Part shown: piece after piece, positions 1,227 to 20,377 of the stretch | How positions within the stretch are numbered: the first letter of the stretch is position 1 | Layout of the letters: each line of letters opens with the position of its first letter | Virus record (IMG/VR): IMGVR_UViG_3300030419_007497 | Span: 1 to 20,377 of that record | Strand: one strand, 5' to 3' | DNA length: 20,377 nt | Origin: a virus | Made by a program: the position numbers and the translations under genes | Notes under the pieces: model-generated | Database searches by the model: none | What the model was told of the DNA's origin: nothing | Seen by the model: only the letters and a program-made list of their open reading frames with translations

Positions 1227-1820
1227 ATGAGCAAAAAGAAAATTTTATCTGAGGAACAGGTTCGCCGCTTTATGGGGCTGGCTGGTCTTCCGGTAGTTAA
1301 TGAAATGGGCGGCATGCATTATGGCCAGCGTGAAGACGATGAGCTTGATGTCGCTGCCGAAGAGGAACCTGAACTCCCCGGAGATGAAGGTCCAGAAGAT
1401 ATGGGCATGGAGCTTCCTGATGAAGGAGGTGATGATCTAGATTTAAGCCCAGAACAAAAAGAAGACCTTGCTGCTGATATAGTTCGTGCAGTTGCTCAAG
1501 AGCTTGAGCAAGCTCTTAGCCTTGAAGAGCCAATTGATGTAGAGGTAGATGGCGAAGTCGAAGGTGATCTTGAAATGGATCTTGGTGAGCCCGATCTTGG
1601 CGGTGAACCGGAAATGGCACTTGATGTTGAAGAAGATCCCATGGCGGAACCTGAAGAAGACGCCCTTGAAGAGGCTGCTGAAGAAGACGCTCTTGAAGAG
1701 TCTGCTGAAGAAGAAGCTCTTGAAGAAGCTGAAGAAGAATTAGCGGAGGTTATTGATGATGAGGCTCTTGTCAATGAAGTACTTCGCAGGGTAGTTGAGA
1801 GACTATCAAAGAAACAATAA
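1227..1820 (+). CDS. highly acidic protein with ALEE repeats, possible head-core/scaffold-type protein
   Basis: 197 residues, TTAGGAG at 1213-1219 before the ATG. The N-terminus (KKKILSEEQVRRFMGLAGL, then PVVNEM) is a helical segment of the kind that recurs at the start of marine T4-like phage structural proteins, as far as I recall. Most of the rest is Glu, Asp, Leu and Ala. Residues 143-168 are three copies of a nine-residue unit (EEDALEEAA, EEDALEESA, EEEALEEA). The C-terminus (ALVNEVLRRVVERLSKKQ) is an amphipathic basic helix. Strong acidity with helical ends is typical of phage head-core or scaffold proteins, but this is inference from composition. It forms a transcription unit of its own, ended by the terminator at 1853-1880. 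Confidence 0.75.
   Translation: MSKKKILSEEQVRRFMGLAGLPVVNEMGGMHYGQREDDELDVAAEEEPELPGDEGPEDMGMELPDEGGDDLDLSPEQKEDLAADIVRAVAQELEQALSLEEPIDVEVDGEVEGDLEMDLGEPDLGGEPEMALDVEEDPMAEPEEDALEEAAEEDALEESAEEEALEEAEEELAEVIDDEALVNEVLRRVVERLSKKQ
1653..1730 (+). repeat. 27-base tandem repeat inside the acidic gene
   Basis: Three in-frame units start at 1653, 1680 and 1707; the last is 24 bases. The units share GAAGAAGA[CA]GC-CTTGAAGA and differ mainly at third codon positions. They encode the nine-residue acidic unit EEDALEEAA and its variants, suggesting expansion by slippage or unequal recombination under selection for an acidic helix. Confidence 0.85.
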
Positions 1821-3189: not shown

Positions 3190-3489
3190 ATGAAAGCATG
3201 GGCTTGGCGTCGTGGAGACGAAGGAAACTATTGTGTACAAATAGAGAACATTAAAGGTAAAAGAAAATTAAATAAGGTTTTAAAACTATTATCAGACTGG
3301 AAGGTTATTAGCGATGGGTACAATCCAAAAACCGAGGAATATACATATATCTTTGCAAAGAGCTTTGCCAATACAAATAAGTGGCTTTCATGGGCTGAGA
3401 AATTTCCGGTGCATTTGACAGAAACAACCTCTCATGGCAATGAAAAGGTTAGAAACAAAAACTTGATTAAAAAAGGCATGCTATTATGA
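3190..3489 (+). CDS. small protein of unknown function upstream of clpP-like gene
   Basis: 99 residues. I chose the ATG at 3190 because AAAGGAG lies at 3177-3183. A longer frame from TTG at 3133 would begin inside the promoter's -35 box and has no ribosome site. The protein starts MKAWAWRRGDEGNYCVQIEN and has alternating charged and hydrophobic stretches (KLNKVLKLLSDWKVISDGY; TYIFAKSFANTNKWLSWAEK), a compact alpha/beta pattern. I recognise no family. It overlaps the ClpP-like gene by four bases, so the two are probably co-translated from the promoter at 3133. Confidence 0.75.
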   Translation: MKAWAWRRGDEGNYCVQIENIKGKRKLNKVLKLLSDWKVISDGYNPKTEEYTYIFAKSFANTNKWLSWAEKFPVHLTETTSHGNEKVRNKNLIKKGMLL

Positions 3490-4178
3490 TTTTTCCAATG
3501 CAATTTGCTAGAAAAAAGAAAGAGGACACAACTGAAGAAGAGCCTGTTGATGGTGAAGCTTCACCAGAAGAAGAAGGGCTCACAAAGGTCACAAATGTAA
3601 TCGAGAGAAAGGAGGAGGTTCCTCGTACTGTTGGTATTTGTGGCGATCTAGATGAAGAAAAGGCAGGCGAGCTTTTATATGGTATGATCTCTCTATATGA
3701 AAGCGGAATCACCTATTCCCTGAAAGATCCCGAGGATGAAGATTCTGATATTTTGGTATCATATCGCCCTTTTGAATTCATTATCTCCACTCTGGGGGGT
3801 AATGCCCAAGAAATGTTTGGTATTCATGATATGATGAGGGTTCTGAGAGAAAAGTGTGAAATTCACACCATTGGCTTGGGAAAGGTTTTTTCAGCGGGAA
3901 CTCTACTGCTTGCTTCTGGTACAAAGGGAAAACGCCGTATTGGTAAAAACTGCCGTGTCATGATCCACAGTGTTCTTGGCGGAAATCACGGTTCTCTCCA
4001 TAATCTTGAAAATGAGATGGACGAGATTCGTTGGACGCAAGATCGCTATATCGAAGCAATGGTTGAAGAGACCAATATGAGCAAGGCACATTTAAAAAAG
4101 ATTCTTAACCGAAAGGTTAATGCTTACTTCACCGCAGAAGAAGCTGTAGAACTTGGTATTGCGGATATTGTATTTTAA
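3486..4178 (+). CDS. ClpP-like serine protease (S14 fold) with altered triad
   Basis: 230 residues, starting in an ATGA overlap. Residues 1-45 are charged and not part of the fold. From about 47 the ClpP fold is clear: STLGGNAQEMFGIHDMMR (101-118), the nucleophile region LGKVFSAGTLLLASGTKGKR (Ser136), MIHSV (His161) and YFTAEEAVELGIADIV at the end. In E. coli ClpP the third triad residue is Asp, two residues before the FLSAPEAV block. Here the aligned residue is Asn212 (KVNAYFTAEEAV). Ser and His are conserved, so activity may be low, altered or rely on another acid. The protein could be a host-like Clp subunit or act on phage head proteins; the sequence does not decide. Confidence 0.88.
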   Translation: MIFPMQFARKKKEDTTEEEPVDGEASPEEEGLTKVTNVIERKEEVPRTVGICGDLDEEKAGELLYGMISLYESGITYSLKDPEDEDSDILVSYRPFEFIISTLGGNAQEMFGIHDMMRVLREKCEIHTIGLGKVFSAGTLLLASGTKGKRRIGKNCRVMIHSVLGGNHGSLHNLENEMDEIRWTQDRYIEAMVEETNMSKAHLKKILNRKVNAYFTAEEAVELGIADIVF

Positions 4179-11993: not shown

Positions 11994-14408
11994 ATGAGCG
12001 ACAAACTTGTAAACGGTTGGCGGCAATATTTAAATAAAGTCCAAACCTCCAATCAACGAAAAGGAATGAAAGATCTCCTTTGGGAGAGGCGTGAAAATTG
12101 GAAAGTTGATCGGATGATCTTCAATCGCGTCCTGCTTGAAGGACGACTTGAGAATGTTAAGAAGAAATACGGAGAAAGACTCCCCGGCGACTATATTGAT
12201 ATGCTTTCTAGTATGGATCCCTCTGGAAATAATAAATATTTAGCCCATATGGTTAAGTTATTTCTTAAATATGTGGAAGATGTCGGAATCAAAGACACGA
12301 GGAGCTACAGACCCGCCATACGTACTATCGGAACGAGGGTTGAACAATTTCATGACCTAAATAAATACATACCTGCCGAGAAAGGCGGGAGAGACATTCA
12401 CTCATATAAAACAATAGATGATCTTAATCAGGCAGTAGCTAACGCAGAAGCAAAGAAAAAGGCTAAAGATGAAGCAGCCCTCTTTAAAGAAAAGGTCCGA
12501 GGAGACGCACAAAAAATCTATCAGGACAAGACAACCCTTGTTATTCGCCCAGGTTCAGAAGAGTCTTCTTGTTATTATGGACAAGGCACGAAATGGTGTA
12601 TCGCAGCCACCGACTCTCGCAACTATTGGGATGATTATACCAATGAACAAGGAGCAGTGTTTTTCTTTATTATTGACAAAGTCGCCCCGGAAGAAATAGA
12701 AAATGATCGGGGCAAGGTTGCCTATGTTTATAACGCTGACCACCCCGAAGCCCAGTACCCATGGGATGCTTATGATGCAGTAGATGACCAGCTTGACCCC
12801 GACTCAATTGACTCATATGAATCAATCTGGGGCACAGAAAAATTTAATCAAATAATAAGAGGCATTCAAGACAGCCTTGATGAAGACCCGCCTGACCCCG
12901 GCGTGGATCTAGATGTCGCAGCCGATGAACTTCGTGAGTATGCCGAACAGGAACTAGGCGACTGGAGTGAGTTTATAGAATTTTATCTCTACGTTGACGA
13001 TGATGAAGGTATCAGTGCTTCAGCAAAACTCTCCTTTGAATTTCCCATAGGGTACGACCCCGATGACGAACAGGAGGCAGAGCAATACACCGATGACAGT
13101 AACCAAATAGAAGACGCATATCAGGAAGGAATCAACATGGATTATGTCGATTTTGATTATGATTATGATTTCACCAACCAATCAGCAGGCGAGGTGACTT
13201 TAAGAATTTCAACAACTTTAACCTGCGATGATTGTATGGGCGGGTACAATATAGGTAACGAGCAAAGACAAGAATATCGGGACAACACGCAAGCTTTTAT
13301 TGATAACATTGTTGGTGAGTATACGGAAGATTACACTGAGTATAAAGAAGAATTACGCAAGGCACTTGTTAAAAAGAAAGTTATCGCCCCTGACAGGTGG
13401 GATAGAACACAAGAAGATATAATTAATCAAATGAAAGCTTTAGACTTGCAGCATTTCAAGCTTAACTTAAATGCTCAGGGCGGCGTAGTCGCACTTCAGT
13501 ATGAGATGGTAGAAAATGCAGCCCTCGGTCCAGCCGCAAGTGCCCCCACCATCGGTAGCTATGGTCGTGGACAAAGAGACACAATATTATTCTCAATAAT
13601 GAGGGCAAACTTTGATGAGGTCCGTGGATGGTACTCATCTGTTTTTGATCTTAAAGCAAGTCAAGCCATTAAACAATATTTCGCAGAAGCACACGAGGCA
13701 GCAAAACAACAACTTGAACTACCGCTCAAGGGAGGGACATACAAGAAGCCAGAAGAAACAGGCAGCAAAGAATGGGAAGATCCTTCAATGATGGTATATC
13801 TGAAAGAAGGTGTGGCAGGCTCTAATGAATTCAAGGGTAGCGTGCAAATTTTGTTTACTAAGTGGCATACCGGCGAAGACGCTCAGGCAACCATGGCATT
13901 TATAAAAAGTTTAGACCGGCATTATGATGATATTGTTAATAAATTAACAAATGTATATGATGAAATGACCGGTGAATATACAGAGAAAATGAAACAAGCA
14001 GACCAAGGCGTTCTTGACGGCTCAACAGCGGCAGACTTGATTCGTTCGATTGATGATAAAATATTATCCGAGCCAGAAAATGTTCGTGAGAGTGTTGTTG
14101 GTGTTTTAAAATGGTTTCAGGAGAACTTTGGCAAAATGAGTGGGATTGAAAAAACTGCGGCAGTTGATTACTTAAAGAGAGTGGAAACCGAGAGATTTCC
14201 GCTTGTCAATGTATATCTTACTTTTTCTAGCGATCTCCCCAAGAGCGGAGTTCCACAATTTTGGAAGAAATTTGTTCGGGATGAATTAAAAGCTCGCGGC
14301 GCGTCTCACAGTCAGGTCCAGGGCTATAAGTGGCAAGGAAAACGAGACGAACTTGTGGAAAGTGTCCGAATTAGAGTGAGAGAGGTGATTAATGAATGGA
14401 AGACATAA
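11994..14408 (+). CDS. large protein (804 aa) with GTKWCIA domain, probable virion protein
   Basis: The start is the ATG at 11994 with a weak AGGG at 11980-11983. The N-terminus (MSDKLVNGWRQYLNKV) has the W-R-x-[FY]-[IL] core of the targeting peptide seen on 15904 and its relatives. Residues 165-260 contain LVIRPGSEESSCYYGQGTKW, then CIAATDSRNYWDDYTNEQ and a strand AVFFFIIDK. This pattern (R-P-x-S-x-x-S-x-x-Y-G-x-G-T-x-W-C) I know from unnamed phage proteins. The middle is very acidic (many Asp/Glu and Tyr, about 270-400) with beta-like segments. The C-terminal 300 residues are mixed helix. It is the first gene after a T4-late-like promoter, so a structural or internal head protein is likely. 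No enzyme function can be given. Confidence 0.8.
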   Translation: MSDKLVNGWRQYLNKVQTSNQRKGMKDLLWERRENWKVDRMIFNRVLLEGRLENVKKKYGERLPGDYIDMLSSMDPSGNNKYLAHMVKLFLKYVEDVGIKDTRSYRPAIRTIGTRVEQFHDLNKYIPAEKGGRDIHSYKTIDDLNQAVANAEAKKKAKDEAALFKEKVRGDAQKIYQDKTTLVIRPGSEESSCYYGQGTKWCIAATDSRNYWDDYTNEQGAVFFFIIDKVAPEEIENDRGKVAYVYNADHPEAQYPWDAYDAVDDQLDPDSIDSYESIWGTEKFNQIIRGIQDSLDEDPPDPGVDLDVAADELREYAEQELGDWSEFIEFYLYVDDDEGISASAKLSFEFPIGYDPDDEQEAEQYTDDSNQIEDAYQEGINMDYVDFDYDYDFTNQSAGEVTLRISTTLTCDDCMGGYNIGNEQRQEYRDNTQAFIDNIVGEYTEDYTEYKEELRKALVKKKVIAPDRWDRTQEDIINQMKALDLQHFKLNLNAQGGVVALQYEMVENAALGPAASAPTIGSYGRGQRDTILFSIMRANFDEVRGWYSSVFDLKASQAIKQYFAEAHEAAKQQLELPLKGGTYKKPEETGSKEWEDPSMMVYLKEGVAGSNEFKGSVQILFTKWHTGEDAQATMAFIKSLDRHYDDIVNKLTNVYDEMTGEYTEKMKQADQGVLDGSTAADLIRSIDDKILSEPENVRESVVGVLKWFQENFGKMSGIEKTAAVDYLKRVETERFPLVNVYLTFSSDLPKSGVPQFWKKFVRDELKARGASHSQVQGYKWQGKRDELVESVRIRVREVINEWKT

Positions 14409-14668: not shown

Positions 14669-15907
14669 ATGCTTAAATATATAAAACATCGACAGAAGCA
14701 GTGGGAAAAAAAGTGGGAAGAAGAGGAGAAAAGGATAGCAGAGGAGGCTGAGAAAGAAGAGGCACGAATTGCTGAAATGCAAGCCCAAGCTCGCCACAAA
14801 AAACTTCTTATCGAACAACAGGAAGCCAAACGTCTGCGACAAGAAAGTCTTCAAAGGCAACAAGAGCTATCAGAAGAAAAATGGGATAAACATTTTGACA
14901 CTTTGTTATCTCAGATAAAAGACCAATTCCAAAAGAACAATAATGACAAGCTTGCTGAAATAAGGGTTATAATTCAAAGCCGTGAACCTTCTCTTGAAGA
15001 GCTTGATTGGGATAGTTGGCTGACTGACCCTCTTAATCAAAGGTTAGCTGATTTAGATTTTGAACATGCGATGGAAATGTTTAAGCGTGATAACCTGCTG
15101 GCAAAACGACGACGACGCACTGGTGGCAAGAAAAAATCTATTTCAGACAATTATTTCTTATCATTTACCGGAAATTCAGCCGTAGCTACAAGAGCCTATG
15201 ATCATGTAACAACTGACTTTAATCCCGATGATTATGATCTTAATTTAGGATTTACTGTTTCTTATTGGGTTAGACCAGATGAAGTGGGAAATACTATGTT
15301 TGCATTTGGTAGAAAGCATAACAATGATCAGCGATTTACATTTGGCATTAATAGAAAACGTCAAGGATACTTCGGCGTTGGGCCCAATAAAAATGCAACA
15401 GCGTGGGTCAACATGGACACTCCAGTAGAAGAATCATTGTTAGTTCAAGACGGTAGCTACTGGAATCTAAAAACAGACGGCACTTGGTATCATTTTGTAG
15501 TAACATATGATGACCGTTCAGATACATCTTCGAATGCTGAACGTAAAATATATGTAAACGGTGTGCTTCGACATACAAACGACTTCAATTGGAATAGTAC
15601 AGGTGGCGGAACTGGTGGTATATATTTTGGTGGCCGTAATCTAACTGGTAATTATAATAATGGATGGGCTTGTGGTCTTGATGAAGTAGCTATTTATGAT
15701 ACAGCCAAAGATTCTAGTTGGGTTGCAAGTGTATATAGTGATGAAACTGGCTATGACCATACAGGTCAAAGTGGTCTTGTAGGATATTGGAAATTTAATG
15801 AAGGTAGCGGCACTACTGTTACAGATCATTCTGGAGAGGGTAATCATGGGACTTTTGCTCCCATTTCTGGAGATACAACAGCCTTTCCAACTTGGGAAGA
15901 AAGATGA
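14669..15907 (+). CDS. coiled-coil plus LamG/concanavalin-like domain protein, probable receptor- or glycan-binding virion protein
   Basis: 412 residues; the ATG follows the previous stop without a gap. Residues 1-110 are a long coiled coil rich in Glu, Lys, Arg and Gln. A basic linker (AKRRRRTGGKKK, about 145-157) follows. From about 160 to the end is a LamG-type jelly-roll: NYFLSFTGNSAVATR, LGFTVSYWVRPD, TWYHFVVTYDD, KIYVNGVLRHT, GLDEVAIYDTA and GLVGYWKFNEGSGTTVTDHS, the last being the usual motif of that family. Such domains bind glycans or proteins and are common in tail fibres or head decorations. No transmembrane segment or signal peptide is visible. Its stop overlaps the next start as ATGA. 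Confidence 0.85.
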   Translation: MLKYIKHRQKQWEKKWEEEEKRIAEEAEKEEARIAEMQAQARHKKLLIEQQEAKRLRQESLQRQQELSEEKWDKHFDTLLSQIKDQFQKNNNDKLAEIRVIIQSREPSLEELDWDSWLTDPLNQRLADLDFEHAMEMFKRDNLLAKRRRRTGGKKKSISDNYFLSFTGNSAVATRAYDHVTTDFNPDDYDLNLGFTVSYWVRPDEVGNTMFAFGRKHNNDQRFTFGINRKRQGYFGVGPNKNATAWVNMDTPVEESLLVQDGSYWNLKTDGTWYHFVVTYDDRSDTSSNAERKIYVNGVLRHTNDFNWNSTGGGTGGIYFGGRNLTGNYNNGWACGLDEVAIYDTAKDSSWVASVYSDETGYDHTGQSGLVGYWKFNEGSGTTVTDHSGEGNHGTFAPISGDTTAFPTWEER

Positions 15908-17076
15908 AACTCCTCTTTGAAAATTGGCGAGGGTTTATTAATGAAATAGCAATCGGGCAATGCTATCCGCATGCCAACAAGATGGCGAACAAGTGGCTGG
16001 ACAATCATATTGACCGGTCTAAGCCCCCAGGCAAAGGAGTCCACCCAGATATTGATAATAAAGACAAATTCAAAGTTGTTCACGGGAGGATAACTGATAA
16101 GTTTTCTGGCGAATCAGTTGAGCACGCCTGGGTTGAGATGGGTGATGAGGTGTTTGACTGGCAAACCAGCACCACAAAGCCTGAAGGGATCCCAAAAGAA
16201 GTCTATTATGATTTATTCCAACCCGAAGTGTTTGTAGACTATACAGCACAAGAGGCAATCACCAATTGTATGAAGGCGGGACATCATGGTCCTTGGAATG
16301 AAGCTTCGGATTTTCAAGCAAGAATGAAAAAACAACTACCTGGGGAGCTTGATTTTCTTATTGGAAAGGGTGGGAACAATACCAAGGTGGGTCCAGGCGT
16401 AAAGAATCCCAAGAAGCCAAAGTTTAAAAGTGCCCCCCCTGGTACAGCCCCTGTTGGAGAGGCAGCAGGCGAGTGCCAAGTGATCACCGTGTTGCGATTG
16501 GGAGGCGAGGATGGCTTAGCAAATCGCAACGCAGCAAATGTGGAGGGCTTACAAGAATACGTTGAAAGCGCAACAGATATGGAGGGTGGTCAATTCGGCG
16601 GTGGCAACATGGCAGACCGAAATGTTTATCTTTATAAAGTTGAGGTCTGCGGGGGTTTTGGTGATTATAAACCGGTTGCAGGAGGCACGAGAGATGCCGA
16701 CACTGAGGCAGAAACACCTGTAGGGCTAAAGGAGTTTTATGGTGGAGACTTCCAGTGGTTTTATTTTCCGCAAGAGAGTGAGGGCAAGTCCTGGCGTATA
16801 ATTGAAAAAGTTGGCGTAATCAAGAACTTTATAGACGATCCTGTGTGGGAACTGTATGGAAGCGGAAAGATTAAAATAAACAAAAAACCCCTTTTGGATC
16901 TCGTAAAACATAAACCAAAGAAAAATGCATTTACAAAAGATGAAAGAGAATACGTTCCCGACGAACACGAGGAGCTTCCAAGCGTTTGGAAACACCCTTG
17001 GGAATGGGACGCGGGTGTTATTGCTCTAAAGCACTATTTAGATAATGTCTATGACATAAAACAAACGGGGACTTGA
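15904..17076 (+). CDS. putative papain-like cysteine peptidase with capsid-targeting-like N-terminus
   Basis: 390 residues. ATG 15904 overlaps the upstream stop as ATGA; a TTG-started longer frame (15892) would add only four residues and hide the shared peptide. It begins MKLLFENWRGFINE, matching the other targeting-like N-termini and ending in I-N-E, a T4-type prohead protease site. A Cys-His-Asp order follows: GQCYPHA (Cys20), VVHGRI (His60), EHAWVEMGD (His74) and FDWQTS (Asp85), a pattern of papain-like/NlpC-type peptidases and amidases. A Lys/Pro/Gly-rich linker (about 155-190) leads to a second domain (GECQVITVLRLGGEDGL; VYLYKVEVCGGFGDYKPVAG; WRIIEKVGVIKNFI) that I cannot name. I infer an enzyme packed in the head and released in the host. 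Catalysis is unproven. Confidence 0.7.
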   Translation: MKLLFENWRGFINEIAIGQCYPHANKMANKWLDNHIDRSKPPGKGVHPDIDNKDKFKVVHGRITDKFSGESVEHAWVEMGDEVFDWQTSTTKPEGIPKEVYYDLFQPEVFVDYTAQEAITNCMKAGHHGPWNEASDFQARMKKQLPGELDFLIGKGGNNTKVGPGVKNPKKPKFKSAPPGTAPVGEAAGECQVITVLRLGGEDGLANRNAANVEGLQEYVESATDMEGGQFGGGNMADRNVYLYKVEVCGGFGDYKPVAGGTRDADTEAETPVGLKEFYGGDFQWFYFPQESEGKSWRIIEKVGVIKNFIDDPVWELYGSGKIKINKKPLLDLVKHKPKKNAFTKDEREYVPDEHEELPSVWKHPWEWDAGVIALKHYLDNVYDIKQTGT

Positions 17077-17078
17077 TT

Positions 17079-17312
17079 GTGATTAAAAGATATGGACTGA
17101 TATGTTTATATGGAGCGGTAGTATTGTTTATGACTGTTTGTATAAACGCTTGTGCTAAAAAAGACACTGTAAACATTCCTGAGCAAAGAGCACCAATTAT
17201 ATTGCCAGAAATTGATGAAGAAGATATATATGATGGTATTGATATTGAAGAAGTCGATACCGCAGAACCACCTACAGACCAGGATTTGTTAAATGACGAA
17301 GAACGCCAGTGA
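17079..17312 (+). CDS. small lipoprotein with acidic tail
   Basis: 77 residues from GTG 17079, with GGGG at 17067-17070; an in-frame TTG at 17073 lies too near that site. The N-terminus has K-R, a hydrophobic core (GLICLYGAVVLFMTV) and INA-C at residues 22-25, a signal peptide with a lipobox-like end, so Cys25 could be lipidated. The remainder is acidic and Pro-rich (VNIPEQRAPIILPEIDEEDI). It may be an outer-membrane lipoprotein, for example a spanin-like or superinfection-exclusion protein, but no partner gene is clear. A Gram-negative host would be needed for an o-spanin role. It overlaps the next gene by 20 bases. Confidence 0.7.
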   Translation: MIKRYGLICLYGAVVLFMTVCINACAKKDTVNIPEQRAPIILPEIDEEDIYDGIDIEEVDTAEPPTDQDLLNDEERQ

Positions 17313-17457
17313 AAAAGAGAAGTGCCCTTTGTGTGGCAGTACTTTGGAAGACGTGGAAGAATGTAGTTATTGTGATTATAAACGCAGAGAATACATTAAC
17401 ACCAAGGAGGCTATTGAAGATGGAGTTTTTTACGAAACACTTAAGAGACGTGGATGA
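17293..17457 (+). CDS. 54-residue zinc-finger mini-protein
   Basis: A short frame starting ATG 17293 with AGGA at 17281-17284, overlapping the lipoprotein gene by 20 bases and the next gene by 38. It encodes MTKNASEKEKCPLCGSTLED and continues VEECSYCDYKRREYINTKEA to a TGA at 17455. The four Cys follow C-x2-C-x9-C-x2-C, the layout of a small zinc ribbon, with basic residues after the second pair. Such mini-proteins bind nucleic acid or proteins. It is supported by motif, ribosome site and tight packing, not by length. Confidence 0.7.
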   Translation: MTKNASEKEKCPLCGSTLEDVEECSYCDYKRREYINTKEAIEDGVFYETLKRRG

Positions 17458-17644
17458 GGGATATATTGAACACGGAAAAACGGCTACTTTATTAAGCTGT
17501 AAGCTTCTTGCATCATCTATCGCCCAATTGTTACATGCTGTGTTGCCTTTCGTGAAGCCACCGTTTGGAACAGACGTTTGCTCTTTGGTGGAACACCTTG
17601 AATCTAAAAAACCAGAAAACAGGGCAAAATGTAAAGAGGAATAA
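17420..17644 (+). CDS. small helical protein of unknown function
   Basis: 74 residues. ATG 17420 has the best ribosome site of the region (AAGGAGG at 17404-17410, nine bases upstream). A frame from GTG 17309 would add 37 residues across the zinc-finger gene and is not supported. A helix with hydrophobic face (ATLLSCKLLASSIAQLLHAV) runs through residues 22-41, then LPFVKPPFG, and the end is charged with Cys (CSLVEHLESKKPENRAKCKE). No family is recognised. A short gap of 26 bases with an ACTATTTAT motif follows. Confidence 0.7.
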   Translation: MEFFTKHLRDVDEGYIEHGKTATLLSCKLLASSIAQLLHAVLPFVKPPFGTDVCSLVEHLESKKPENRAKCKEE

Positions 17645-17654
17645 TCGTCTCTTG

Positions 17655-17669
17655 ATAACTATTTATATA
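17655..17669 (+). promoter_or_regulatory. ACTATTTAT motif (possible late promoter), copy 4
   Basis: ATAACTATTTATATA at 17655-17669, directly before the GTG start at 17671. ACTATTTAT is at 17658-17666. There is no Shine-Dalgarno. Position and sequence copy those before 4842, and a leaderless transcript would follow if this is a -10-type element. Confidence 0.55.
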
Positions 17670-17670
17670 C

Positions 17671-18096
17671 GTGAAACTTTTAATTGAAAATTGGCGTAAG
17701 TTTATTCAAGAGGCAAAACACCTTGTTTGCCCCAAGCCCACACAGGATCTTGAACTAAACACCAAGAACCGCAACGCAGCTATTCAAGCAGAACATATTC
17801 AATATGGACCTCTTAATCTTGAGGATGAGGAATACTGGGTGCGTGCCGCCGAGCACTGGAACACTGCACCCGAAATCGCGAAAAAATCTAGATGCTCTAA
17901 CTGTGTAGCTTTTGATGTCTCGCCGCGAATGAAAGAGTGTATGCCAGGATCTGTTCAAGAAGATGGGCAACTCGGATACTGTTGGATGCATCACTTTAAG
18001 TGCCATTCTGCAAGATCTTGCTACACCTGGGCAGCAGGTGGTCCAATTGATGACGATAAGGTTTCATATGAATGGCAAGAGAAGGGTAACAAATGA
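17671..18096 (+). CDS. Cys-rich HiPIP-like protein with capsid-targeting-like N-terminus
   Basis: 141 residues from a GTG start without Shine-Dalgarno. It begins MKLLIENWRKFIQE, then AKHLVC, the targeting-type peptide with an I-Q-E end. After a variable stretch comes GPLNLEDEEYWVRAAEHWNT, then a Cys cluster: RCSNCVAFD (C-x2-C), KECMPG, LGYCWMHHFKCHSARSCYTW. The spacing and the final C-x-x-W resemble high-potential iron-sulfur proteins, which hold a 4Fe-4S cluster; extra Cys are present. I recall very similar Cys-rich proteins in marine T4-like phage virion gene sets, without a proven function. An iron-sulfur or zinc role is inference. It overlaps the next gene by ATGA. Confidence 0.7.
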   Translation: MKLLIENWRKFIQEAKHLVCPKPTQDLELNTKNRNAAIQAEHIQYGPLNLEDEEYWVRAAEHWNTAPEIAKKSRCSNCVAFDVSPRMKECMPGSVQEDGQLGYCWMHHFKCHSARSCYTWAAGGPIDDDKVSYEWQEKGNK

Positions 18097-19259
18097 GCAA
18101 TTATGAAGAAAACTGGAAAAACTTCTTAAAAGAAGGTTGCTGGGAAGGCTACGAGCAGAAAGGTATGAAAAAGAAGGGAGACCGAATGGTTCCCAACTGT
18201 GTGCCGATATCCGAAGAAACTAGAGACACCTACGGTTCTGAAGTTGTGGATCGCAATAAGAGATCTGTTGAAAAAGGATCTAAAAAATTAGGTCTTGAAG
18301 AAAAAGATGACCGTTGCACCCGCATCGCTAAACGAAAATATGATGTTTGGCCTTCTGCATATGCCTCCGGTGCTGTTGTCAAGTGCCGCCAAGGTAAAAT
18401 CTGGAAAGGAGTTAAAGAAGGAGAAGAGCCGGGACTAGAGATTAAAATCAGAAAAGCTTTGCGTGATGAGGGTGGTGCCGCAGGAATGGATGCTCTTGTA
18501 GACCATGCCGAAGCCTCAGAGTCAGATATTAAAGCCGCTATCAAAGATATGGACGATGTTGGACAACATAAGAATGGCGATTATATTTTAGATGATGGAG
18601 AAGATATTGATATCTTAGAAGAAGATCTTCGCAAGTGGTTTGGTCGCAAAGGCGAGAAAGGAAGCAAGGGCGGCTGGGTAGATTGCAACGCTCCTGATGG
18701 CGAGGGTGGCTATAAAGAGTGCGCCCAGGGCGACAGGAAGAAAAAGCCCGCTTGTCGTCCAACACCATCTGCCTGCAAAGATCCTGGCAAAGGCAAGAAA
18801 TGGGGAAAGAAGGCAACCAAAGAGGCATTGAATATGAAAATTACAAAAGAAGAGTTGGAGCAAATCATTTTTGAAGAGGTAAAGGAAGTTTACTATGAAA
18901 CTTTTATCTTTCCTCACTTAACAGAAGCATGGCTAGAAGATGGCACACCTGTTTGTACCGGGTGTTTGCATGAACTGTTGAATGAAGCATCTTGTGATTG
19001 CCCTCACTTAGTTTATGAGGCAGAGTATCGTGGACGAAAAGTAAAACTTAACAAGCCAATGCGAGGCGATGTTAAAAAGTTTAAAGTATACGTCAAAGAC
19101 CCTAAGACCGGAAATATTAAAAAAGTCAATTTTGGACAAAAAGGCATGAAAATCAGAAAAAGTAATCCAAAAGCTAGAAAATCTTTTAGAGCCCGTCATA
19201 ATTGTGACAATCCCGGTCCAAAAACAAAGGCACGGTATTGGTCCTGTAAGAAGTGGTAA
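18093..19259 (+). CDS. modular basic Cys-rich protein, probable internal virion protein
   Basis: 388 residues built from several small modules. 1-14: MSNYEENWKNFLKE, a looser targeting-type peptide ending L-K-E. 16-37: CWEGYEQKGMKKKGDRMVPN module. 74-106: RCTRIAKRKYDVWPSAYASG, then VVKCRQGKIWKG. 112-180: an acidic winged-helix-like stretch (IKIRKALRDEGGAAGMDALV). 181-237: WFGRKGEKGSKGGWVDCNAP and PACRPTPSACKD. 248-303: MKITKEELEQIIFEEVKE and a Cys cluster (VCTGCLHELLNEASCDC). 318-388: KLNKPMRGDVKKFKVYVKDP to HNCDNPGPKTKARYWSCKKW. I recall several of these as repeating modules in marine phage structural proteins. The basic charge suggests contact with packaged DNA. Roles are inferred. Confidence 0.75.
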   Translation: MSNYEENWKNFLKEGCWEGYEQKGMKKKGDRMVPNCVPISEETRDTYGSEVVDRNKRSVEKGSKKLGLEEKDDRCTRIAKRKYDVWPSAYASGAVVKCRQGKIWKGVKEGEEPGLEIKIRKALRDEGGAAGMDALVDHAEASESDIKAAIKDMDDVGQHKNGDYILDDGEDIDILEEDLRKWFGRKGEKGSKGGWVDCNAPDGEGGYKECAQGDRKKKPACRPTPSACKDPGKGKKWGKKATKEALNMKITKEELEQIIFEEVKEVYYETFIFPHLTEAWLEDGTPVCTGCLHELLNEASCDCPHLVYEAEYRGRKVKLNKPMRGDVKKFKVYVKDPKTGNIKKVNFGQKGMKIRKSNPKARKSFRARHNCDNPGPKTKARYWSCKKW

Positions 19260-19265
19260 CTCGCT

Positions 19266-20291
19266 ATGAAACTTATACTTGAACATTGGCGAAATTTCTT
19301 ATCAGAAGAAGACACTCGTTATGACGAGGACGGCAATGTATTACCACCCCTACCGCCAGAACATGCAGTGGCCATTAAAGAAGCTGGAATGGTGTTAAAC
19401 AAATTCCTTGGCGAAGGCAAGATGGGAAAAGTATATGAAGTTGAGGATCCAAAAACGGGACAACGGATGGCGGCAAAAGTCGTATCAAAACACACTCCTC
19501 AGTATTATAACGAGAGCAAAAACTATAATTGGATACTTAAGAACAGGGAAAGCCTTCCCGACGATGTTAAAGAATATGTGGTGGATGTATATAAATTGTT
19601 TGAGGACTCAAGCAATAAATATTTAGTTATATTAATGGAGCTTCTTAAGCCTGCTCCAAAAAATGTTGTAAATCAAATATTTGGTTCGTTAGAATACTCG
19701 CCTGAAAAAGAAGAAAGGTTATTAAAAGACCCCACCGCAGTATATGAAATTGTATTTGATGTACTTCAGAAAAACAATATGCTTAATTCAGCTAATCAAT
19801 ATAGGGGCGTGAGTCAGAGCGATAGAAAAAAAGCAGCAAAAACAATTCTTAGAACTTACTTGCTGGACAAAGAGATTCCAAAACCAAAAACAAAAAATGT
19901 AGATTCATTCTTAGAGCTTTATCAATTATCCGGGGCTCAATGGCAGAGACTATATGATGCAATTGTTATAGAGATAGAATCACTTTTAGGAGACGTGGAC
20001 AGATCTGTCGTCTGGGCTGCCGCCGAAGCGGTAGAAAAAGATTTGCATTACTATATTAATAAACAAGTAATTCCAATGACATATGGAACAGGACGAGGAC
20101 ACCCGTTAAGTGGTGCAGGTCCAGGGGTATCTGAAGTGTTCCCAGAAATACAAGGCTTTGTCAACGCAATGAAGCAGCTTTCGCGAAAAGGATTTAACCC
20201 ACGAGACATGCATACAGACAATGTGATGATGCGTCCCGACACAAACCAACTAGTCATGACCGATGTCGGCTTATTCCTGGTGACAAGATGA
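19266..20291 (+). CDS. atypical protein-kinase-like protein with capsid-targeting-like N-terminus
   Basis: 341 residues; the ATG lies seven bases after the previous stop. It begins MKLILEHWRNFLSE, with a likely L-S-E processing site. The N-lobe is kinase-like: glycine loop FLGEGKMGKVYEV (47-59), AAKVV with the ATP-binding Lys71, a possible helix-C Glu83 and a hinge YLVILMELLK (119-128). The catalytic loop appears late as NPRDMHTDNVMMR (311-323, Asp314 and Asn319) and the metal-binding Asp is in MTDVG (Asp333). The protein ends eight residues later, so a normal C-lobe after the DFG-type motif is missing, while about 180 residues are inserted between hinge and catalytic loop. It could phosphorylate host proteins after injection. 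Kinase fold is moderately sure; substrate unknown. Confidence 0.78.
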   Translation: MKLILEHWRNFLSEEDTRYDEDGNVLPPLPPEHAVAIKEAGMVLNKFLGEGKMGKVYEVEDPKTGQRMAAKVVSKHTPQYYNESKNYNWILKNRESLPDDVKEYVVDVYKLFEDSSNKYLVILMELLKPAPKNVVNQIFGSLEYSPEKEERLLKDPTAVYEIVFDVLQKNNMLNSANQYRGVSQSDRKKAAKTILRTYLLDKEIPKPKTKNVDSFLELYQLSGAQWQRLYDAIVIEIESLLGDVDRSVVWAAAEAVEKDLHYYINKQVIPMTYGTGRGHPLSGAGPGVSEVFPEIQGFVNAMKQLSRKGFNPRDMHTDNVMMRPDTNQLVMTDVGLFLVTR

Positions 20292-20377
20292 AACTCCTAT
20301 TTGAAAATTGGCGAGAGTTTGTAAAGCAAGAGGTAGAAGAGTTTCTGCCACACGGAGAAGTGCGAGCAGTTGAGAAG
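20288..20377 (+). CDS. start of another protein with the targeting-like N-terminus (cut by window edge)
   Basis: Thirty codons are visible, beginning with ATG 20288 in an ATGA overlap with the kinase-like gene. The protein begins MKLLFENWREFVKQE and then VEEFLPHGEVRAVEK. Its first 33 bases differ from those of the gene at 15904 at only two positions, after which the two diverge. The product cannot be named, but the N-terminus places it with the putative internal virion proteins. Confidence 0.85.
   Translation, partial: MKLLFENWREFVKQEVEEFLPHGEVRAVEK

Follow-up and report, generated by a model that had tools for sequence, protein, structure and literature searches.

A portable N-terminal peptide on unrelated proteins of uncultured marine T4-like phages: a probable capsid targeting and processing signal

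The stretch of DNA considered here, IMG/VR record IMGVR_UViG_3300030419_007497 (the window), is a linear viral contig of 20,377 bases, and its final 4.5 kb raise a simple question: why should five open reading frames (ORFs) that encode otherwise unrelated proteins begin with versions of one 14-residue peptide, or “tag”? An earlier note on this DNA proposed a capsid-loading signal of the kind known from the internal proteins of phage T4, trimmed by a gp21-type protease. Judging from comparisons of sequence, we consider it likely, with a probability of roughly 0.8, that this peptide serves a lineage of uncultured marine T4-like myoviruses as a capsid targeting and processing signal.

The five N-termini quoted in that note are all present in the window, in the ORFs that start at 15904, 17671, 18093, 19266 and 20288 (here and in later paragraphs, all window features whose coordinates are written in the form start..end are on the + strand). 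The first tag, MKLLFENWRGFINE (15904..15945), opens an ORF of 390 residues (15904..17076) whose ATG start overlaps the upstream stop codon; the second, MKLLIENWRKFIQE (17671..17712), has a GTG start and opens a Cys-rich ORF of 141 residues (17671..18096); and MKLILEHWRNFLSE (19266..19307) is the N-terminus of a protein-kinase-like ORF of 341 residues (19266..20291). The tag at 18093, MSNYEENWKNFLKE (18093..18134), is diverged, with a different first half and with W8, F11, L12 and E14 in register, and it stands at the head of a modular ORF of 388 residues (18093..19259). The last one, MKLLFENWREFVKQE (20288..20332), is one residue longer and reads F-V-K-Q-E, with no hydrophobic-x-Glu (phi-x-E) motif in register; its ORF is truncated by the end of the contig, which leaves 30 residues. 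The pattern aromatic-x-x-F-[ILV]-x-E described in the earlier note, with its [L/I]-x-E motif in register, is therefore seen in four of the five tags and fails at 20288. A degenerate copy, MSDKLVNGWRQYLNK (NGWRQYLNK; 11994..12038), heads an ORF of 804 residues and keeps the aromatic residues with Lys in place of Glu, while homologues of this protein in L201, L257 and L119 have the canonical first half of the tag. From copy to copy in the window, the DNA encoding the tag shows several synonymous differences.

The tag is widely distributed among viral contigs. Its 14-residue consensus is M-K-L-[LI]-x-E-N-W-[RNK]-x-[FY]-[LIV]-x-E, and at least 120 viral-contig stretches match a degenerate DNA pattern of it; a second DNA pattern, with residues 1-8 only fixed, gave a further set of matches. 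Among the matches listed from both patterns there are 354 tagged proteins of at least 60 residues in viral contigs. Clustering of the downstream parts of these 354 gave 142 clusters, of which 90 have a single member (BLASTP, E 1e-3), which bears out the claim that what follows the tag is unrelated. Across cellular genomes representing 84,980 species of bacteria and archaea, the equivalent pattern was found only two times, both in phage-like DNA. Both places lie in records of metagenome-assembled genomes (MAGs). L289 (PBSV01000031.1), a contig of an ‘Opitutia’ MAG, has three or more tagged ORFs and probably belongs to this phage lineage and was misbinned; L290 (CP070664.1), a MAG labelled ‘WOR-3 bacterium chromosome’, includes a segment homologous to the window, from GroEL to a tagged ORF and with an 808-residue homologue, which probably represents phage DNA that became attached to this MAG. 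A search of 50,697 cultured phage records with a 20-residue tag (tblastn) gave irrelevant Microviridae matches only and no convincing match, and neither the window kinase nor a tagged HAD protein was matched in cultured phages. The portal protein of L238 (MKFIVENWRQIPFW) was discarded as a tagged protein: it is an unrelated phage protein without phi-x-E that matched the DNA pattern by chance. The literal strings ENWRKFL, LKQIIKEEL and MKTYQEFIAE were not found in the literature searched, whose coverage was incomplete, and hence we found no earlier report of the tag.

Can the recurrence be accidental? In six near-complete related genomes, which were picked for carrying the tag and have 5-10 tagged genes each, the core W..[FY][LIVM].E occurs within the first 22 residues of 47 of the 1057 genes, compared with 3 of 13118 internal segments of matching size, a 194-fold difference. 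A chance origin of the tag is excluded.

The closest known counterpart of the peptide is found in T4, whose internal proteins are highly diverse, with their capsid targeting sequence (CTS) alone conserved (PMC3012670). The N-terminus MKTYQEFIAE of ipII and ipIII was confirmed in the T4 sequence, and the spacing of W8, F/Y11, L12 and E14 in the tag is exactly that of Y4, F7, I8 and E10 in the CTS. Mutational mapping of the T4 CTS has shown that residues 4 and 7 are the main ones for targeting and that residues 8 and 10 govern processing; the cleavage motif of gp21 is L/I-x-E, and Asp at position 10 blocks processing but permits targeting (PMC9026906). The alignment with the T4 peptide proposed earlier thus holds, by identical spacing to residues defined by mutation. 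In T4 itself, the 54-residue hypothetical protein gp61.1 (NC_000866 18966-19130, - strand) has the N-terminus MKTFKEFIKE, a possible CTS.

The residues conserved in the tag, and the point at which the conservation stops, were examined in 80 families selected on residues 1-8 only (W8 is therefore fixed by the query). Position 11 is F/Y in 72 of the 80 and position 12 is [LIV] in 72; position 14 is E in 63 and D in one, and positions 10 and 13 are variable. The edge is sharp: in the 354-protein set listed, the information per position is about 2.5 bits at 14, 0.5 at 15 and about 0.2 beyond. Among the 17 families without E14, 13 have a shifted phi-x-E ending at positions 12-17, against a background of 14%. 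The core also outlives the rest of the leader, since [WFY]xx[FY][LIVM]xE is kept in 32 of 86 homologues without MKLxxEN, all found through the mature (downstream) domain only, versus 1 of 247 control windows.

These figures bear directly on the alternative that survives best, namely a packaging tag without processing, in which the peptide would attach its protein to the core or shell of the prohead and the Glu would belong to the docking helix instead of being a protease site. This would accommodate the few tagged proteins that have no Glu and the residue after it (P1'), which is not limited to small residues, and the targeting and processing residues of T4 are separable (PMC9026906); but it sits poorly with a phi-x-E that is retained when the spacing slips, with an Asp that almost never appears at 14, with conservation that ends exactly at the Glu, and with an S77 protease in every near-complete contig. 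We hold it to be unlikely.

The S77 protease brings us to the phages themselves. Each of the 14 tagged contigs that reach 139 kb or more has both Peptidase_S77 (gp21) and Gp23, and the head module has the T4 order TerL-gp20-...-gp21-...-gp22-gp23. In the six related genomes, the pro-region of gp23 has a conserved LLxKWE+TGLLEG as well as MARLLENQAKELL[RK]E (conserved LL[RK]E) right before the mature part; the expected cut site of the capsid protein is therefore also hydrophobic-x-Glu. In G008, one tagged gene is part of the head module and lies two genes upstream of the S77 gene, which is directly followed by the gene of a WRTFLNE-containing protein. As a separate observation, LLxKWE+TGLLEG resembles the tag in that an aromatic helix is followed by phi-L-E, and the tag could mimic the contact of gp23 with the core.

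Within the 20-kb window there is no S77 protease gene; for the virus of the window, the presence of the protease is predicted from its syntenic relatives. The window and the S77/gp23 phages have in common the gene order GuaB-like, ClpP, GroEL, Dam and small genes, and the GroEL of the window is about 60% identical to theirs. An island of ten tagged genes comes after the equivalent block in G009, and the window is therefore read as the beginning of such an island. The window does have a ClpP/S14-type protease (3486-4178), which matches PHROG head maturation proteases and is kept near GroEL in six of six relatives; it was considered as the processing enzyme, and S77 was preferred because the relatives also have S77 at the position of T4 gp21. 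By gp23, the closest cultured phages are the Flavobacterium phages immuto, with 49% identity over the aligned part. We take the source to be an uncultured marine relative of phage T4, from a T4-like myovirus lineage.

The mechanism we infer, from docking and cleavage to packaging and ejection, would run as follows. While the head is being assembled, the aromatic face of the helix (W8, F/Y11) would dock the tagged protein onto the core of the prohead. The gp21-type S77 protease would then cut after Glu14, at [LIV]-x-E, and so release the cargo within the head, from which it would exit with the DNA upon infection. The tag itself is a portable module: about 140 unrelated proteins, for the most part uncharacterised or enzymatic, carry it, presumably through recombination, and their genes, 5-10 per genome, lie largely within gene islands. 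What the sequences show directly is the tag with its modularity and conserved positions, and its co-occurrence with the protease and the T4-type head. The central proposal of the earlier note, a T4-like CTS that a gp21-type protease trims, held up in all the computational tests that could be applied, on account of the T4 spacing, the sharp end at the Glu, a phi-x-E kept despite slips, the presence of gp21 and gp23, and the phi-x-E of gp23; the interpretation given in that note, taken as a whole, is partly supported.

An amphipathic helix could also sort proteins to a quite different place, be it the membrane, the tail or a phage compartment inside the cell. The cargo tags of encapsulins and microcompartments are N-terminal helices of similar length, and MKLLLENWRKFL is amphipathic; yet the tag matches both the residues of the T4 CTS and the protease motif, a tagged gene lies inside the head module of G008, and T4-type heads are encoded by all the near-complete tagged contigs, all of which makes a destination outside the head improbable. 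Codon usage raises another matter: it is skewed in the tags relative to the protein bodies (L3 is CTC in 41% versus 10% elsewhere, and L4 is CTA/TTA in 90%), and the tags therefore descend from common DNA that was copied between genes. Despite this common DNA, a DNA-level cassette, whose 5' end would be a recombination anchor or translation-initiation region and whose peptide would be functionless, is already disfavoured and hardly credible, given that the DNA upstream of tagged genes has nothing conserved except the ribosome-binding site, that F/Y and L/I/V interchange with positions 10 and 13 free, and that divergent leaders retain the core residues alone.

It should be pointed out that several observations weigh against a capsid targeting and processing signal. 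Part of the tag identity reflects recent DNA copying. The proteins at 20288 and 11994 have no in-register Glu, and P1' is often Glu (20 of 63) where the T4 internal proteins have Ala. The majority of the homologues of the 17671 protein are tagged and some have a divergent leader with the core kept, but others are entirely without a leader. Flavobacterium phage immuto uses other leaders that end in F-[LI]-x-E (MENFDLKKFLVE). Lastly, the late-promoter-like motif ACTATTTA, discussed below, stands directly before tagged genes in only 4 of 46 cases, which is a weak link.

There are several known systems with which the tag can be compared. The T4 CTS, found on IPI, IPII and IPIII and in the Alt propeptide, is likewise an N-terminal peptide on unrelated proteins with aromatic-x-x-F-[LIV]-x-E at equal spacing and an L/I-x-E protease motif, in a phage with a gp21-type S77 protease and a gp22/gp23 head. 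The tag differs in being four residues longer N-terminally, with a conserved MKL[LI]xEN block and Trp for Tyr, and in its scale: about 140 putative cargo families across the lineage and 5-10 per genome, as against the three internal proteins of T4. In phage P1, a short N-terminal segment of DarB suffices to carry a foreign protein into the head (PMC9024508). The Dar anti-restriction system likewise relies on N-terminal capsid targeting and has injected defence proteins, but the Dar N-termini have no consensus and P1 has no separate scaffold. The head propeptides of the giant phages SPN3US and phiKZ are often longer than 100 residues and have an A-x-E or S-x-E motif (PMC5694885); they too are cut, by gp245/gp175, C-terminal to a Glu after a short motif, and these phages eject multiple proteins, but they have no common short tag on many proteins. 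Polyvalent proteins and MuF-type injected multidomain proteins also have enzymatic cargo domains, for which packaging with the virion is predicted (PMC5512222), whereas these are long fusions with no shared short N-terminal tag. The best explanation is that the tag, which has the sequence features of the T4 signal, would be a new sequence form of the mechanism known from T4 on a much larger scale.

What the tag would deliver is a diverse group. The domains found on tagged proteins are protein kinase, zeta-toxin/AAA_33 kinases, GNAT, NUDIX, HD, RNase T, PAP2, poly(A) polymerase/tRNA nucleotidyltransferase, M23 peptidase, HAD nucleotidase and nucleotidyltransferase, and most tagged proteins have no domain match. 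The annotated cargo comprises, by these predictions, assorted enzymes that modify nucleotides, RNA or proteins, of which some may be host-directed and the rest merely needed early; the earlier view of the cargoes as host effectors is only partly supported. In the window, the kinase-like character of the 19266 protein was confirmed (Pfam Pkinase, 5e-9; catalytic residues invariant in 9 homologues), and the Cys-rich 17671 protein has relatives annotated in phages as high-potential iron-sulfur protein. The description of the 15904 protein as peptidase-like found no backing, as it has no Pfam or PHROG match; it is a two-part protein of unknown fold, with homologues in L276, L164 and L104 that have the same tag, and its AlphaFold model (predicted local distance difference test, pLDDT, 41) was unusable and not used. 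Sequences of the YHAT/YHYT type were seen by eye in several cargoes with no Pfam match, one of which (L100) gave an AlphaFold model with a pLDDT of 42 that was not used; an ADP-ribosyltransferase identity of such cargo is only an impression and is not supported. Tagged and other proteins also have in common a recurrent module of unknown function, CWxGYxxxGMKKKxGxxVPNCV (window 18134-18225; also L289, L061 and L040).

The tag is not the only leader in these phages. A second one, class B, reads MKITKSxLKQIIKEE[LI] and was found on 118 proteins in 92 unrelated clusters on the same contigs (for example L174:11642, L057:3512 and L086:3072). In the window it occurs internally, as MKITKEELEQIIFEE (18834..18878) inside the ORF at 18093. 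The C-terminal part of the 18093 protein is a separate protein in other phages, where it begins with the class B leader; the ORF therefore appears to join two tagged cargoes in one protein, a part with the 14-residue tag (class A) followed by a class B part. The gene that comes immediately after gp21 begins, in most of the six genomes, in a way similar to the class B leader, and it possibly encodes a core protein. One may speculate, tentatively and with more doubt than confidence, that the head is a general protein delivery vehicle, in which at least two portable leader classes would address well over 200 families to the prohead core, new cargo would be recruited simply through the gain of a leader, and fusion proteins like 18093 would be cut into separate injected parts. 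A third recurrent N-terminus, M-x-K-K-x-L-x-E-x-x-V-R-R-F-M-x-L-A, was seen on a strongly acidic protein (window 1227-1820; also G008, G009 and G026).

The motif ACTATTTA lies just 5' of the start at 17671 (17658..17665) and is found in the window at 1900, 4828, 11953 and 17658, and also in the six related genomes. It is strongly over-represented upstream of genes (55 upstream regions versus 1.8 expected). The genes that it precedes include those for gp22, sheath, tube and baseplate, along with several tagged operons and 17671, and it was found upstream of 12 of 46 structural genes versus 0 of 26 replication genes (p = 0.003). By this distribution, it looks like a late promoter motif of the lineage.

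If the peptide is a capsid targeting and processing signal, the packaged proteins should have free N-termini at residue 15, and a 14-residue pattern would be enough to flag virion-packaged proteins of widespread uncultured marine phages from their genomes. Scores of hypothetical proteins would then become predicted injected proteins of the first moments of infection, and the three internal proteins of T4 would represent a small case of a far larger modular delivery system. The tag is probably a searchable label for the proteins that these viruses pack and inject.

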